This document shows, one piece after another, positions 2,858-40,927 of a DNA stretch of 64,000 nt. The DNA is taken from positions 2,046,001-2,110,000 of the forward strand of contig NZ_JACCBN010000001.1 in the NCBI RefSeq assembly GCF_013409505.1. Direction: 5' to 3'. The position numbers and the translations under genes are program-made. The notes under the pieces were generated by a model that saw nothing but the letters and a program-made list of their open reading frames with translations, did no database searches and was not told the origin of the DNA. This DNA is from Actinomycetospora corticicola. Its GTDB lineage: Bacteria; Actinomycetota; Actinomycetes; Mycobacteriales; Pseudonocardiaceae. Numbering within the stretch: the first letter of the stretch is position 1; each line of letters opens with the position of its first letter.

Positions 2858-3205
2858 GTGGGGAGCGCCTGACAGCAGTGGCCCGTTCATGTCGTCAGAT
2901 GCGTCAACGGGGCCACTCGCTCCGCCGCCTGCCCAGCCCTTCTGCGGCGAGGTTCACGTCAGGCAGCCCGAACCGCGCCGGGACCTGCCCCATGTGCACC
3001 TCGCGACGCCGGGTGGGGCGCAGTGGGGCGACCTGGTGGGGCGCGGTGGGGAGCGCCTGACAGCAGTGGCCCGTCATGTCGTCAGATGCGTCAACGGGGC
3101 CACTCGCGCCGTCGCCCGCCCAGCCCTTCTGCCGCGAGGTTCACGTCAGGCAGCCCGAACGGCGCCCGGACCTGCCCCATGTGCACCTCACGACGGCGGG
3201 TGGGG
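2858..3205. repeat. Duplicated block of about 160 bp in the mraZ upstream region
   Basis: The segment 2858-3018 recurs at 3046-3205 with few differences. Each copy begins with GTGGGGAGCGCCTGACAGCA, contains a hairpin (AGTGGCCC pairing with GGGCCACT), then one unit of the 56-bp palindrome family, and ends with GTGGGG. No gene is visible. The whole 2552-3368 interval is otherwise non-coding. Confidence 0.85.
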
Positions 3206-3292
3206 CCATGTGGGGCGCGGCAGCACCGGCCGCACCGCGAGATTCACGTCGGGCAGGCCCGGGGCGCCGGCACCTGCCCCCTGTGAACCTCG
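2948..3292. repeat. Three units of a 56-bp palindromic repeat (left cluster)
   Basis: Units at 2948-3003, 3135-3190 and 3238-3292 have a left arm like CGAGGTTCACGTCAGGCAG and a right arm like ACCTGCCCCATGTGCACCTC, which are imperfect inverted copies around a variable centre of about a dozen bases. The same family forms the right cluster at 40.1-40.9 kb. Unlike bidirectional terminators they sit upstream of genes, in a regulatory gap. Confidence 0.8.
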
Positions 3293-3313
3293 GCGCCGCT
3301 CCCCGCACACGAA

Positions 3314-3345
3314 CGCGCCGCCGACCCCACGGGGTCGACGGCGCG
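3314..3345 (-). terminator. Terminator hairpin after the DUF3040 gene
   Basis: CGCGCCGCCGACCCC at 3314-3328 pairs with 3331-3345 with one mismatch and a 2-base loop. It lies 24 bases beyond the stop of the minus-strand DUF3040 gene. There is no clear T-run, as is common in actinobacteria. Confidence 0.65.
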
Positions 3346-3368
3346 TCGGAGAACGGGGTGAGCGGGAG

Positions 3369-3776
3369 CTACTCCTGCTCGAAACGCTTGCGGAAGCGCT
3401 CCTCCATCTTCGTGGTGAAGCGACTCTTGTCCTTCTCACCGGCCGGGGCGGACTTGCCGTCGCCCTCACCGGCGGCCGCCTCACCCTTCTTCCCGCCGGT
3501 CGCCGTGATCGCGAGGACCGCGCCGGCGAACATCATGAGGAACCCGATCACGCTGACCACCGGGAACCCACCCGGCGACAGCGACTGGATGAACACGAGA
3601 CCCATCACGAGGGCGACGACCCCGACGACGAAGAGCACCACGCCTTGAATCCGGCGTCGCCGCGACGGACGGCGGAGCCGGCCCCCACGGACGGTCGACG
3701 CGAACTTCGGATCCTCGGCATAGAGCGCGCGTTCGATCTGATCGAGCAAGCGCTGCTCGTGCTCGGAGAGCGGCAT
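3369..3776 (-). CDS. DUF3040 family membrane protein
   Basis: The 135-residue protein starts with the DUF3040 signature MPLSEHEQRLLDQIERALYAEDPKFA, here read in two parts as an N-terminal helix and an AEDPKFA turn. A basic stretch (about 34-43) precedes two membrane segments (about 44-62 and 70-91), and a charged Lys/Glu tail ends the protein. The mycobacterial homologue at the same place is Rv2169c. Function is unknown; the fold suggests a small integral membrane protein with both ends cytoplasmic. The ATG is preceded by GGAGGAGAATC, a clear ribosome site. It lies just upstream of the dcw control region but is separated from mraZ by 0.8 kb and a hairpin. Confidence 0.88.
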   Translation of the reverse strand: MPLSEHEQRLLDQIERALYAEDPKFASTVRGGRLRRPSRRRRIQGVVLFVVGVVALVMGLVFIQSLSPGGFPVVSVIGFLMMFAGAVLAITATGGKKGEAAAGEGDGKSAPAGEKDKSRFTTKMEERFRKRFEQE

Positions 3777-38318: not shown

Positions 38319-40018
38319 GTGCGATCACCACACCCACTCGTAGCGGAAGCACGGCGATGAAGCTCGTCGGCACCGCCGCTGACGAGGTCGACAGCCGTAT
38401 CCACCCTGCCGGCGGTGTCCGTCGTCAGATCAACAAGGTCTTCCCCACGCACTGGTCGTTCATGCTGGGCGAGATCGCGATGTACAGCTTCATCGTGCTG
38501 CTCCTCTCCGGCACGTGGCTGGCCGTCTTCTACGACCCGTCGATGGCCGAGACGACCTACGAGGGCGTCTACCCCGGCCTCCGCGGCGTCACGATGTCGA
38601 TGGCGTACGAGTCGACGGTCAACATCTCCATGGACGTGCGTGGCGGGCTGTTCATCCGCCAGGTGCACCACTGGGCCGCGTTGCTGTTCGTCGCCGCGAT
38701 GATCGCGCACATGATGCGGACGTTCTTCACCGGAGCGTTCCGCCGCCCGCGTGAGACGAACTGGGTGCTCGGCGTCGTGCTGCTGCTCACCGGCATGATC
38801 GAGGGCTTCATCGGCTACTCGCTGCCGGACGACCTGCTCTCCGGCACCGGCATCCGCACCGGGCTCTCCGCGATCGTCATGTCGATCCCGGTCGTCGGGA
38901 CCTGGCTGCAGTGGGCGATCATGGGTGGCGAGTTCCCGGGCCACATCATCATTCCGCGGCTCTACATCGTCCACGTCTTCCTGCTGCCTGGGATCATCCT
39001 CGCGGTGATCGGCGTGCACGTGGCGCTGGTGTGGTTCCAGAAGCACACCCAGTTCCCCGGCCCGGGGCGGACGGAGCGCAACGTCGTCGGCGTCCGCATC
39101 CTCCCGACCTTCGCGGCCAAGGCCGGCGGCTTCATGGTCGTCTCGGTCGGCGTCATGGCGATCATGTCGGGCGTCTTCCAGATCAACCCGATCTGGAAGC
39201 TCGGCCCCTACGACCCGACGCAGGTGTCCGCGGGATCGCAGCCCGACTTCTACATGGCGGTCTTCGACGGCGCGGTGCGTCTGTGGCCGTCGTGGGAGAT
39301 GTACCTGAACCTGAACTTCATCGGGCTGAACTCGTACACGGTCCCGGCGATCTTCTTCCCGGCCGTCATCGGCTTCGGCCTGCTGGTGAACCTGCTGGTG
39401 GCCTACCCGGTCATCGAGCGCAAGCTCACCGGCGACGAGGCGCACCACAACCTGCTGCAGCGTCCGCGCGACGTCCCGGTCCGCACGGCGACCGGCATGA
39501 TGGCGCTGTCGTTCTACTTCTGGCTCGTCCTCGCCTGCGGTAACGACATCTTCGCCTACACGTTCGACATCTCCCTGAACGTGATGACGTGGATCGGCCG
39601 CATCGGTCTCCTGGTGATCCCCCCGGTCGTCTACTTCGCGACCTACCGGATCTGCCTGGGCCTGCAGCGCTCCGACCGTGAGGTCCTCGAGCACGGCATC
39701 GAGACCGGCCACATCAAGCGCCTGCCCCACGGTGAGTTCATCGAGGTGCACCAGCCGCTCGGTGGCGTCGACGATCACGGGCACGCCCTGCCGGTGGCCT
39801 ATCAGGGGGCGACGGTCCCGAAGCGGATGAACGACCTCGGCTTTGCCGGCAGCCCGGTGAAGGGTGGCTGGTTCCGCCCCGACCCGGCCGAGGAGCAGGA
39901 CGACGTGCAGGGTGTCCACGGCGGCACCGGCACCGATCCCCTCCAGGTCGAGCCGAGCACCGGGCGCGAGCTCGCCGGTCGTCCCGACGCCGGCCGTCCG
40001 CGCGACGTCCGGGACTGA
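38315..40018 (+). CDS. qcrB: Cytochrome b subunit of the bcc complex
   Basis: QcrB holds haems bL and bH and the two quinone sites. Haem-ligand helices are seen in [23 protein letters not shown] and [27 protein letters not shown], and the Qo region carries a [13 protein letters not shown] loop and the conserved [11 protein letters not shown]. About eight membrane segments and a long soluble C-terminal tail (about 455-567). Length 567 residues, slightly longer than in mycobacteria. It is followed by a perfect 36-bp palindromic terminator. Confidence 0.97.
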
Positions 40019-40034
40019 CCCAGAACGACCCAGG

Positions 40035-40070
40035 AACGGGGCGGGGAGCCGATCGGCTCCCCGCCCCGTT
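40035..40070 (+). terminator. qcrB terminator, perfect 36-bp palindrome
   Basis: AACGGGGCGGGGAGCC (40035-40050) and its inverse (40055-40070) form a 16-bp stem around GATC, followed by TTCG. It lies 17 bases after the qcrB stop. Confidence 0.88.
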
Positions 40071-40108
40071 TCGTCGTGTCTGGGGTCCACGGTGGGCTCT
40101 CTTGAGGG

Positions 40109-40927
40109 TGACACCAGACCTGTCCCACGTGAGTCTCGTGGCGTGACTGGCCCCCGCTACCCCGATTCGAGGTGCACACCAGGCAGCTTCCGCGGCCTCA
40201 GAACCTGCCCCACGTCACTCTCGACGGCGGACCGCCACCGCGGCCGTAGGCGCCATAACCAGGTACGGACGCCCGGCGCGTGCACCTCGTGGCGGCCGGT
40301 CGTCCAGCAGGCTCGTCCGCCACGTCTTGGCCTCCGAGGTGCACACCAGGCAGCACCGCGTGAGTCTCGGGGCAGGACTGGCCCGCCAGCCCGATTCGAG
40401 GTGCACACCAGGCAGCCTCAGAGGCCTGAGAACCTGCCCCACGTGACTCTCGACGGCGGGGGCTGCCCGAGGGCACTCCGGGCGCGTGAGGGGCGTGCCA
40501 CCCTGTGGCCAGCTAGTCGTCTAGCAGCTCGTCGGCCACAACCCGGCCCCCGAGAAGCACATCAGGCAGCCTCAGAGGCCTCAGAACCTGCCCCACGTGA
40601 ATCTCGCGGCAGGGCCGTCCCGCCAACCCCCACGAGGAGCACACCAGGCAGCCCCAGGGGCCACAGAACCTGCCCCACGTGACCCTCGACGGCGCGGGGG
40701 CTGCCCGAGGGCACACCGGGCGCGTCAGTAGCGTGCCACCCTGTGGCCAGCTAGTCGTCTAGCAGCTCGTCGGCCACAACCCGGCCCCCGAGAAGCACAT
40801 CAGGCAGCCGTCGCGGCCTCCGAACCTGCCCCACGTGAGTCTCGCGGCGGGGCCGTCCCGCCGACCCGACTCGAGAGTCACACCAGGCAGCCCGATGAGC
40901 CACAGAACCTGCCCCACGTGAACCTTG
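40109..40927. repeat. Right cluster of the 56-bp palindromic repeat (six full and two partial units)
   Basis: Full 56-bp units lie at 40168-40223, 40397-40452, 40551-40606, 40633-40688, 40789-40844 and 40872-40927; shortened ones at 40109-40138 and 40335-40369. The left arm reads about CGAGGTGCACACCAGGCAGC and the right arm AACCTGCCCCACGTGACTCT then CG, imperfect inverted copies with a central GGCC in most. The cluster fills the 1-kb gap between qcrB and ctaF and holds no credible gene. Reading frames here are translations of the repeats. Confidence 0.88.
40452..40927. repeat. Two-copy higher-order repeat of about 238 bp
   Basis: The segment from about 40453 recurs 238 bp later from about 40689. 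Each copy has a spacer containing CTGTGGCCAGCTAGTCGTCT and then two 56-bp palindromes. The near-identity of the spacers indicates a recent duplication of a pair of units. Confidence 0.82.

Follow-up and report, generated by a model that had tools for sequence, protein, structure and literature searches.

A dispersed family of 56-bp paired half-sites in Actinomycetospora is probably read as duplex DNA rather than as hairpins

Introduction

Dispersed palindromes at the ends of bacterial genes are usually taken for hairpins. MITEs are likewise discrete dispersed units, with short terminal inverted repeats. Dispersed sites that act as duplexes on bacterial chromosomes are exemplified by parS/ParB, NBS/Noc, KOPS/FtsK and Ter/Tus, some of which are polar to replication; KOPS, Chi and Noc sites are short single sites. 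The eukaryotic boundary or terminator proteins CTCF, Reb1 and TTF-I have polar duplex sites, some of them at gene ends, and restrict transcription or the passage of loops there. The available parts of the REP/BIME literature describe GTAG- and CGTC-tagged types (PMC3733652, PMC2817692) and REP elements as targets of IS110-family elements (PMC1525189).

The window analysed here is a stretch of 64,000 nucleotides from Actinomycetospora corticicola. A preliminary description had reported in it nine full and two partial copies of a palindromic repeat, in two intergenic clusters. It likened them to REP/BIME elements, and read them as a structured unit under selection or actively spreading.

Results

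Units in the window. All eleven copies were borne out by inspection and by pattern and profile matches (Table 1). The nine full copies scored 42-58.5 bits (E <= 8.9e-12 on the better strand) with a sequence-only profile in whose alignment three of the nine stood. By eye, the two clusters have the unit in common and differ in their flanks, and copies occur genome-wide, so the clusters are not a simple segmental copy, which the preliminary description had named as a finding that would overturn it. That description knew no named family of this sequence; neither the literature search nor an Rfam scan of the window, in which an mraW RNA at 1984-2075 was the only match and no unit scored above a family's gathering threshold, brought up a catalogued one. 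By eye, a hairpin similar to the terminator-like one of qcrB (40035-40070) opens the gap after qcrB in the 16 other species read there.

Table 1. Repeat units in the window with their neighbouring genes and hairpins
Feature	Position	Strand	Basis
mraZ, downstream of first cluster	2120..2551	-	
Full 56-bp unit with CA-half on the left and GG-half on the right	2948..3003	+	pattern + profile
Full 56-bp unit, ends in A, one mismatch	3135..3190	+	pattern + profile
Full unit, 17-bp centre (55 bp)	3238..3292	+	pattern + profile
Small ORF, stop faces first cluster; weak TctB match below cut-off	3369..3641	-	
qcrB (Cytochrom_B_N_2, Cytochrome_B), left neighbour of second cluster	38357..40018	+	
Intrinsic-terminator-like hairpin of qcrB, outside array	40035..40070	.	
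Partial copy, right half only	40114..40138	+	pattern + profile
Full unit	40168..40223	+	pattern + profile
Partial copy, left half joined to outer end of right half, without centre	40335..40369	+	
Full unit	40397..40452	+	pattern + profile
Full unit	40551..40606	+	pattern + profile
Full unit, 82 bp from preceding unit (40551..40606)	40633..40688	+	
Full unit, 156 bp from preceding unit (40633..40688)	40789..40844	+	
Full unit, 83 bp from preceding unit (40789..40844)	40872..40927	+	
Intrinsic-terminator-like hairpin of ctaF, outside array	40972..41011	.	
ctaF (Cyt_c_ox_IV), right neighbour of second cluster, convergent with qcrB	41024..41422	-	

Architecture. Each unit consists of two 19-bp half-sites (CGAG-N3-CAC-N4-GGCAG), arranged as an inverted repeat around an 18-bp centre of free sequence. 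The centre was exactly 18 bp in 37 of 37 strict matches, with 8-25 bp allowed, and the start-to-start distance of the half-sites is fixed at 37 bp (113 pairs at 37, two at 36, one at 38). The CGAG/CTCG ends are nearly invariant in an alignment of 85 units. Between 15 reciprocal orthologue pairs the boxes were 96.1% conserved and the centres 68.5%, in keeping with the conserved arms and variable centre reported before; since the search for pairs went by box score and kept the best matches, 96% and 68% are both upper figures. Decayed copies are rare: copies with zero to five mismatches numbered 29, 53, 18, 12, 1 and 2 before the background rises. Box positions and spacer length are conserved and the spacer sequence is free, as in an operator.

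Arm pairing and phasing. In the arms, 76.1% of cells paired against 77.1% after shuffling, and 492 of 500 shuffles reached at least the native value. Variable arm positions had a pairing deficit (z down to -5.4), with 0 GG/GG half pairs against 8.9 expected. Folded as RNA, native units were less stable than chimeric halves (-27.4 vs -30.4 kcal/mol). The U-run that follows the GC hairpin of an intrinsic terminator is absent behind the units, where T makes up 6.4% of the following 10 nt on both strands. Arm pairing at or below chance leaves the structured unit of the preliminary description unsupported, and a hairpin or RNA function was rejected because of the pairing deficit, the better folding of chimeras and the arms without covariation. 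The three-base mismatch seen earlier in the stem is real, columns 11-14 pairing worse than chance; it reflects two unlike half-sites and not a conserved stem.

Apart from the 81-84 mode, spacings between neighbouring units follow the series 82.8 + k x 10.3 bp, so that the arrays are phased on the helix as operator sites may be. V was 0.54 for all 40 spacings and 0.66 for the 32 from genomes G000 and G001. For the 19 distinct spacings V was 0.50 (p=0.0009) and for the 12 distinct spacings over 100 bp it was 0.67 (p=0.00035), the period having been derived initially from these spacings themselves; at a period of 10.5, p was 0.004 and 0.0017, respectively. The linkers between units are nearly unrelated (0.473 alike vs 0.418 shuffled). 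Arms without covariation, native units that fold worse and spacing steps of about 10.3 bp together argue for a protein-bound duplex and not for a hairpin.

Location. Among gaps of 20-600 bp, 25 of the 81 convergent ones, 19 of the 290 tandem ones and 3 of the 135 divergent ones held units (p=3.8e-10), and each of the two rRNA operons read is followed immediately by an array. Of 101 units in convergent or tandem gaps, 34 have a stop codon 3-16 bp ahead of their start. Hairpin stems of at least 9 bp were present in 25 of the 56 convergent gaps that lack units vs 2 of the 25 that bear them (p=0.00095), a comparison limited by the 11 unit-bearing convergent gaps that have no 45-nt window left outside units; the exclusion is seen in convergent gaps only, since among tandem gaps 39 of the 271 unit-free and 2 of the 19 unit-bearing ones have stems. 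Copies are mostly extragenic, as bears on whether they avoid coding sequence, a check proposed in the preliminary description: called genes (home-made gene caller) were overlapped by >=10 bp in 5 of 112 sampled copies. Three units in L029 lie inside an open reading frame, which the gene caller missed, and relatives in L003 likewise lie in an open frame. The 40 stretches of G000 and 20 of G001 were picked because they hold units, and both samples were so chosen when 7 of the 8 unit-bearing gaps mapped in both species were found to carry units in both. Units at unrelated loci agree in 50 or 51 of their 56 bases, and the likeness ends abruptly at their edges (e.g. 4256965/3171800 and 5316200/4335970); an IS110 insertion occurs at units.

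Distribution. In the organism's own genome, 223 matches to the 24 box positions (<=3 mismatches) were obtained against one for the reversed control. The family thus has at least 223 copies per genome, which confirms the dispersed repeat family, and it is mostly extragenic and high-copy. Among the genomes searched it was found only in Actinomycetospora, whose species differ strongly in copy number, up to hundreds. Of 43 genomes outside the genus, 10 had one or two weak profile matches (best E 1.4e-4), which are taken as chance, and the core pattern showed no general excess over control in other genera of the family. Genus g17 was mildly high against control in four of five members (9/2, 9/1, 8/0 and 5/1, but 3/6). 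Thirteen of 18 species have a sister dialect of the same geometry with the outer box GATCA, against 0 in 18 for the control, and the genus holds both dialects, CGAG and GATCA, as well as hybrids. No viral stretch had an exact match for either dialect pattern; a third, looser pattern gave at least 120 stretches and was left out of this result. No clear unit was seen in the ispH gap of 13 of the 18 members of the genus. The ispH gaps of other genera are mixed, with a strong hairpin in G022 and G029, none in others and many not cleanly read, so they do not decide whether units substitute for hairpins.

At E 0.001, none of the 18 genus genomes, three of which are under 90% complete, had a match to the Y1 transposase profile PF01797; the profile did match in 5 of 14 control genomes. 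The suggested link to a RAYT gene thus found no support, and RAYT-driven REP movement was rejected.

Orientation. Orientation tends to track the replichore: 88 of 119 oriented copies agree with it (p=1.3e-7) and 31 are opposite. Fitted to the orientation of 61 listed clusters alone, the polarity switches fell at 4.56 and 1.51 Mb, with 49 of 61 clusters in agreement (0 of 200 shuffles). One switch is thereby placed next to dnaA at 4.54 Mb; the second is loosely placed, 0.48-1.96 Mb lying within one cluster of the best fit. The first fit had added seven strict-list clusters with few wrong-way copies and was repeated without them and in worse cases. Three copies directly follow dnaA, and the listed copies are spread over the chromosome; in a list that is incomplete beyond 4.88 Mb, at least 41 places are within 1 Mb of dnaA vs 32 within 1 Mb of its antipode. 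Strand-specific composition was rejected as the cause of polarity: on the leading strand the keto fraction of other intergenic DNA is 0.504, and that of the units is 0.55 in their centre and 0.59 at the degenerate positions of the arms. A dependence of orientation on the transcribed strand was rejected too, because tandem gaps on the plus (11 vs 2) and minus (11 vs 3) strands point in the same map direction.

Discussion

What the units keep is duplex geometry, not arm pairing. The unit is probably a protein-bound double-stranded DNA site, an operator-like element whose two inverted 19-bp half-sites would be bound by a putative genus-specific DNA-binding protein. Within arrays the units would share one face of the helix, which would let bound complexes contact each other. 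Units may have spread as discrete 56-bp blocks and be kept by selection on the boxes; of the earlier alternatives, selection is favoured by the box constraint and spreading by signs of past unit dispersal, without a structured unit. Where units follow stop codons or rRNA operons or separate convergent genes, the bound complex would most likely be a boundary that limits read-through and/or supercoil passage between neighbouring transcription units. That the units act as a boundary at 3' ends is plausible, if slightly doubtful; taken whole, the reading of the units as operator arrays of such a protein acting as a 3'-end boundary is our best explanation, and we hold it with evenly balanced confidence. 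A physical roadblock of RNA polymerase is a somewhat unlikely form of it. Polymerase stopped at the near edge of a stop-codon-adjacent unit would halt inside the gene, and a simple roadblock fits badly with the 34 units that start so close behind a stop. The boundary explanation also has against it that qcrB and ctaF retain their own terminator hairpins beside the array, so that units are not needed as terminators there, and a terminator role would not lead one to expect replichore polarity. Also against it stand the 31 wrong-way copies, the loose placing of the second switch, the restriction of hairpin exclusion to convergent gaps, the units inside an open reading frame, the strong differences in copy number between species and the ispH gaps in which no clear unit was seen. 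Among the unit-flanked genes inspected for a driver (IS110 transposase, HTH_67, alpha/beta hydrolase, patatin and one without Pfam match), none stood out.

The replichore tendency, independent of gene strand, would be accounted for if the units were a chromosome-scale polar signal for a putative nucleoid, segregation or condensin-type factor, with the 3'-end position merely doing least harm. The spread of listed copies over the chromosome and the copies behind dnaA agree with this; the 31 wrong-way copies, a concentration near dnaA that is mild at most, and the form of the units, 56-bp paired arrays and not short single sites like KOPS, Chi and Noc sites, make it unlikely. Fork insertion would give the same bias if REP/BIME-like repeats were moved as single-stranded hairpins by a putative HUH-type enzyme. 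A mostly extragenic, lineage-specific, high-copy, IS110-targeted repeat at 3' ends, with near-identical units at unrelated loci, would suit such an enzyme, but it is quite improbable given the lack of a Y1_Tnp match in all 18 genomes, of a GTAG or CGTC end and of covarying or well-folding arms; nor would a hairpin model give any role to a centre of constant length or to helical spacing.

A selfish repeat that brings the host no function, is tolerated in convergent gaps and has boxes that serve its mobiliser would explain genus limits, uneven copy number, dialects and unit dispersal. It is very unlikely, because boxes stay intact while centres have far diverged, decayed copies are rare, gaps shared by two species mostly carry units in both (in samples chosen for units), and spacing is helically phased. 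Least credible by far are RNA-level elements, either bidirectional intrinsic terminators or mRNA-stabilising hairpins: units do stand close behind stop codons, and other hairpins are nearly absent from unit-bearing convergent gaps, but the U-tract is lacking, folding is weaker than in chimeras without covariation, and the window scan gave the units no Rfam match.

Were these sites read by a protein, it would give the genus a chromosome-scale protein-based boundary or 3'-end system, and the two dialects with their hybrids would show how protein and sites change together. The replichore tendency is a handle on what the sites act upon: replication, condensins or transcription.

Compared with REP/BIME elements as the available parts of the literature present them, the family is REP-like in location and falls outside the REP definitions, so the likeness drawn in the preliminary description stands in part. 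Shared are more than 100 extragenic copies per genome, preference for positions behind genes and for convergent gaps, clustering, lineage specificity and targeting by IS110. In contrast, the unit is 56 bp and not a 20-40 nt stem-loop with selected pairing, both ends carry CGAG (CTCG on the right) or, in the sister dialect, GATCA in place of a one-ended GTAG or CGTC tag, the 18 Actinomycetospora genomes yielded no Y1 transposase, and the units have a fixed 18-bp centre, helically phased spacing and a replichore tendency. The inverted ends, discrete unit and dispersal recall MITEs; an interior that has far diverged between copies yet keeps its length is not what MITE copying alone gives. The parS/ParB, NBS/Noc, KOPS/FtsK and Ter/Tus systems likewise have dispersed and partly replication-polar duplex sites, whereas here 19-bp half-sites are paired, arrays at 3' ends are phased, and the protein is only putative. 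The likeness to CTCF, Reb1 and TTF-I sites, in polar duplexes and gene ends, is one of analogy only. On that analogy the units might, speculatively and rather improbably, form a bacterial boundary system in which one fast-evolving, genus-specific putative protein with more than 200 polar, phased duplex sites per chromosome insulates or terminates convergent transcription units instead of intrinsic terminators, with replication setting the orientation of the sites in a way that resembles CTCF-type boundary sites in eukaryotes.

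Copies, range and anatomy of the unit

For the 56-bp unit, the count of nine full and two partial copies given in the preliminary description of the window (2,046,001-2,110,000 of a one-contig 6.17-Mb genome) was borne out. The family extends beyond these two clusters: the 24 box positions match 223 times across the genome with up to three mismatches, and the reversed control matches once. In the GTDB species collection, from which this genome may be absent, 20 of 20 stretches with the exact pattern were titled Actinomycetospora. With up to two mismatches, the unit was found in 12 of 18 genus genomes (186, 152, 42, 24, 22, 8, 7, 6, 1, 1, 1 and 1 copies) and in none of 82 genomes outside the genus. 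A sequence-only profile, both strands counted, gave at least 93 matches in eight of the 18 genomes, 4-16 in the other ten and 0-2 per genome in 43 genomes outside the genus. In genus g17 of the same family, the core pattern mildly exceeded the control in four of five members (G111, G141, G162, G178). No description of this family was found in a literature search.

Each half-site has the consensus CGAG-N3-CAC-N4-GGCAG, often followed by G(T/C)(T/C)C, and two half-sites face each other across a centre of 18 bp, a length exact in all 37 strict matches with 8-25 allowed. Across the window and 40 stretches of 20 kb, 113 half-site pairs lie at a distance of 37 (two at 36, one at 38), and six strong half-sites (≥18 bits) are unpaired. 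The two halves often differ; at half-site positions 13-14, CA meets GG in 58 of 112 units (36.3 expected), GG meets GG in none (8.9) and CA meets CA in 24 (37.1).

In the sampled 0.86 Mb, 29, 53, 18, 12, 1 and 2 copies carry zero to five box mismatches, and background rises beyond five (20 at six, 114 at seven). In random unit pairs, box positions are 92% identical and centre positions 45%, where composition would give 33%. Between this genome and a congener, whose loci are ~85-93% identical, 15 reciprocal best pairs of units are identical at 96.1% of box, 69.0% of variable arm and 68.5% of centre positions, values biased upward because units were detected by boxes and the best match was chosen. 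Among 66 gaps mapped in both genomes, in samples both selected for presence of units, seven hold units in both, one in the congener only, none in this genome only and 58 in neither.

The qcrB-ctaF gaps of sister species led us to predict a second dialect, GATCA-N3-GCAC-N5-GCA-N20-TGC-N5-GTGC-N3-TGATC; it occurs in 13 of 18 genus genomes, with 74 and 72 copies as the highest counts at three or fewer mismatches, and its control gave zero in all 18. Among the matches listed for one genome (G015), hybrids in which one half is of the CGAG type are common. By eye, qcrB-ctaF gaps of several species of the other clade (L086-L090, L094-L096) hold another palindrome, approximately ACGAACGCGCCGTTCG...GCGAACRGCGCGTTCGCT, and many of these gaps have a GCTGGCGTTCAACGCCAGGATCGCCACA-like stretch in common.

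Pairing, folding and spacing

The unit had been described as a palindromic, structured element. The palindrome is present; improvement of it by selection is absent from pairing and folding tests. We aligned 85 units (84 distinct), namely every third of the 112 sampled here, at most two per congener locus and some from other species, omitting eight of 93 references (other species, mostly low-scoring). Arm cells were paired in 76.1% versus 77.1% after shuffling, 492 of 500 shuffles equalling or exceeding the native value, and Watson-Crick pairing fell below that of randomly re-paired half-sites at most of the variable arm positions. Mean RNA energy was -27.4 kcal/mol for native units and -30.4 kcal/mol for chimeric halves, the nine units of the window, taken as single-stranded DNA, folded with z of -3.8 to -0.2 against dinucleotide shuffles, and no U-run was found behind units. 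Arms without covariation and native folding weaker than that of chimeras speak against a hairpin, and the lack of a U-run against an intrinsic terminator.

Start-to-start spacings peak at 82-83 and next at 92-94, with further values at 73, 104-105, 123-124, 133, 145 and 154-156; 78, 96, 99 and 102 also occur. The strongest period within 5-25 bp is 10.3. Because one mode dominates, the phasing test was limited to spacings outside 81-84, that mode being the phase reference. All 40 such spacings gave V=0.54 and the 32 from this genome and the congener V=0.66, neither reached in 20,000 random draws; 19 distinct values gave V=0.50 (p=0.0009) and the 12 above 100 bp V=0.67 (p=0.00035). The corresponding p values for these two sets were 0.004 and 0.0017 at a period of 10.5 bp, and 0.035 and 0.047 at 10.0 bp. 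Linkers at the 83-bp spacing are little more alike between loci than shuffled ones (0.473 vs 0.418), and one gap (L005/L044) has a spacing of 83 here and 93 in the relative. A protein-bound duplex site would predict fixed geometry, a free centre, unlike and non-covarying halves, helical phasing and constraint on the boxes; a hairpin would not.

Placement and polarity

By gap type, the 112 units divide into 59 convergent, 42 tandem, seven divergent and four at a stretch edge (first rRNA array). Among gaps of 20-600 bp, units occupy 25 of 81 convergent, 19 of 290 tandem and three of 135 divergent ones (p=3.8e-10). Eleven convergent gaps hardly exceed their units plus 3-28 bp per side, near-filled lengths being 78-89 bp for one unit, 153-178 for two and 248 for three. 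Arrays lie directly behind both rRNA operons read, and a unit also comes after a tRNA-Val. One or two units fill the ispH-DUF6542 gap in five species of the clade; a clear unit is absent there in the other 13 genus members, two of which (G004, G012) hold candidates by eye. Outside units, stems of at least 9 bp are present in 25 of the 56 convergent gaps that lack units and in two of the 25 that have them (p=0.00095), 11 of the latter 25 leaving no room for a stem; tandem gaps show no contrast (39 of 271 vs 2 of 19).

Two features suggest a boundary role: units sit at 3' ends, and the convergent gaps that carry them nearly exclude hairpins. A pure terminator is disfavoured, since qcrB and ctaF keep their own hairpins beside the array, and a simple roadblock at the near edge is spoken against by close stop-codon spacing (among the 101 convergent- and tandem-gap units, 34 start 3-16 bp behind the stop).

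In two stretches (L029 ~6890-7200, L003 6237-6670), units lie within an open reading frame, before the part that codes for a likely membrane segment, and their translation would give a repeated linker (...RDAHQAGPAAPEP...); their spacings are multiples of three (93, 78; 138, 93, 147). On the mraZ side of the window, short GGTGGGGCG repeats (2803-2846) lie beside the units, and a 144-nt block is repeated at 187 bp (92%) around them (2887-3217).

The same half faces the oncoming fork in 88 of 119 oriented copies (46+42 vs 11+20; p=1.3e-7); positions are known for 100, and the other 19 (7 plus, 12 minus) have strands derived from totals and were put beyond 4.88 Mb by list order. A two-switch fit to orientation alone, without dnaA (4,536,311-4,537,867), placed the switches at 4.56 and 1.51 Mb; 49 of the 61 listed clusters were consistent with it, a number reached by none of 200 shuffles (best 48). 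Adding further known places gave 55 of 71 (0/200), and in the worst case, where each of the seven unlisted plus copies counts as a cluster of its own, 55 of 74 (2/200). Of the two switches, the first is firmly placed (4.5-4.6 Mb) and the second loosely, any position within 0.48-1.96 Mb costing at most one cluster; the dnaA antipode lies at 1.454 Mb. Neither gene strand nor the base skew of other intergenic DNA explains the orientation. This polarity suggests that the sites are read, or were laid down, in the direction of replication.

Dispersal and comparison with known systems

Between different loci, nine comparisons share at least 16 of 18 centre bases (1.35 expected) and 26 at least 15 (8.9 expected). 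Units 4256965 and 3171800 are alike at 50 of 56 bases, and 5316200 and 4335970 at 51 of 56 (centre 15/18), likeness ending at the unit edges; in the rRNA-operon array pair, one of the nine, the flanks match as well. At the same gap, relatives have 1, 2 or 3 copies, their arrays differing in steps of one unit. Between two species, a 1.85-kb segment flanked by two units and holding an HTH_67 gene and an alpha/beta hydrolase gene is inverted (L050 7485-9390, L074 4977-6917). IS110-family elements were found at the CTCG edge of units; the L021 site has a counterpart without the element in L080 near 7456.

Features at unit edges or on the mraZ side of the first cluster
Feature	Stretch and position	Basis	Remark
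mraW RNA motif	window 1984-2075 (-)		mraZ side of first cluster
IS110-family element	L046 9940-11280	Pfam	outer unit edge
IS110-family element	L021 8345-9660	DNA similarity	outer unit edge
IS110-family element	L075 6655-11000	DNA similarity	outer unit edge

The boundary function of the units, like the protein predicted to bind them, is an inference. Comparison systems are KOPS, Chi, Noc, parS, Ter, CTCF, Reb1, TTF-I and MITEs. The REP traits used for comparison (size, tags, RAYTs and 3'-end location) come from PMC1525189, PMC3733652, PMC12306157 and PMC2817692. According to PMC1525189, REPs are likewise hit by IS110-family elements, so that IS110 insertion is a feature that the units have in common with REPs.
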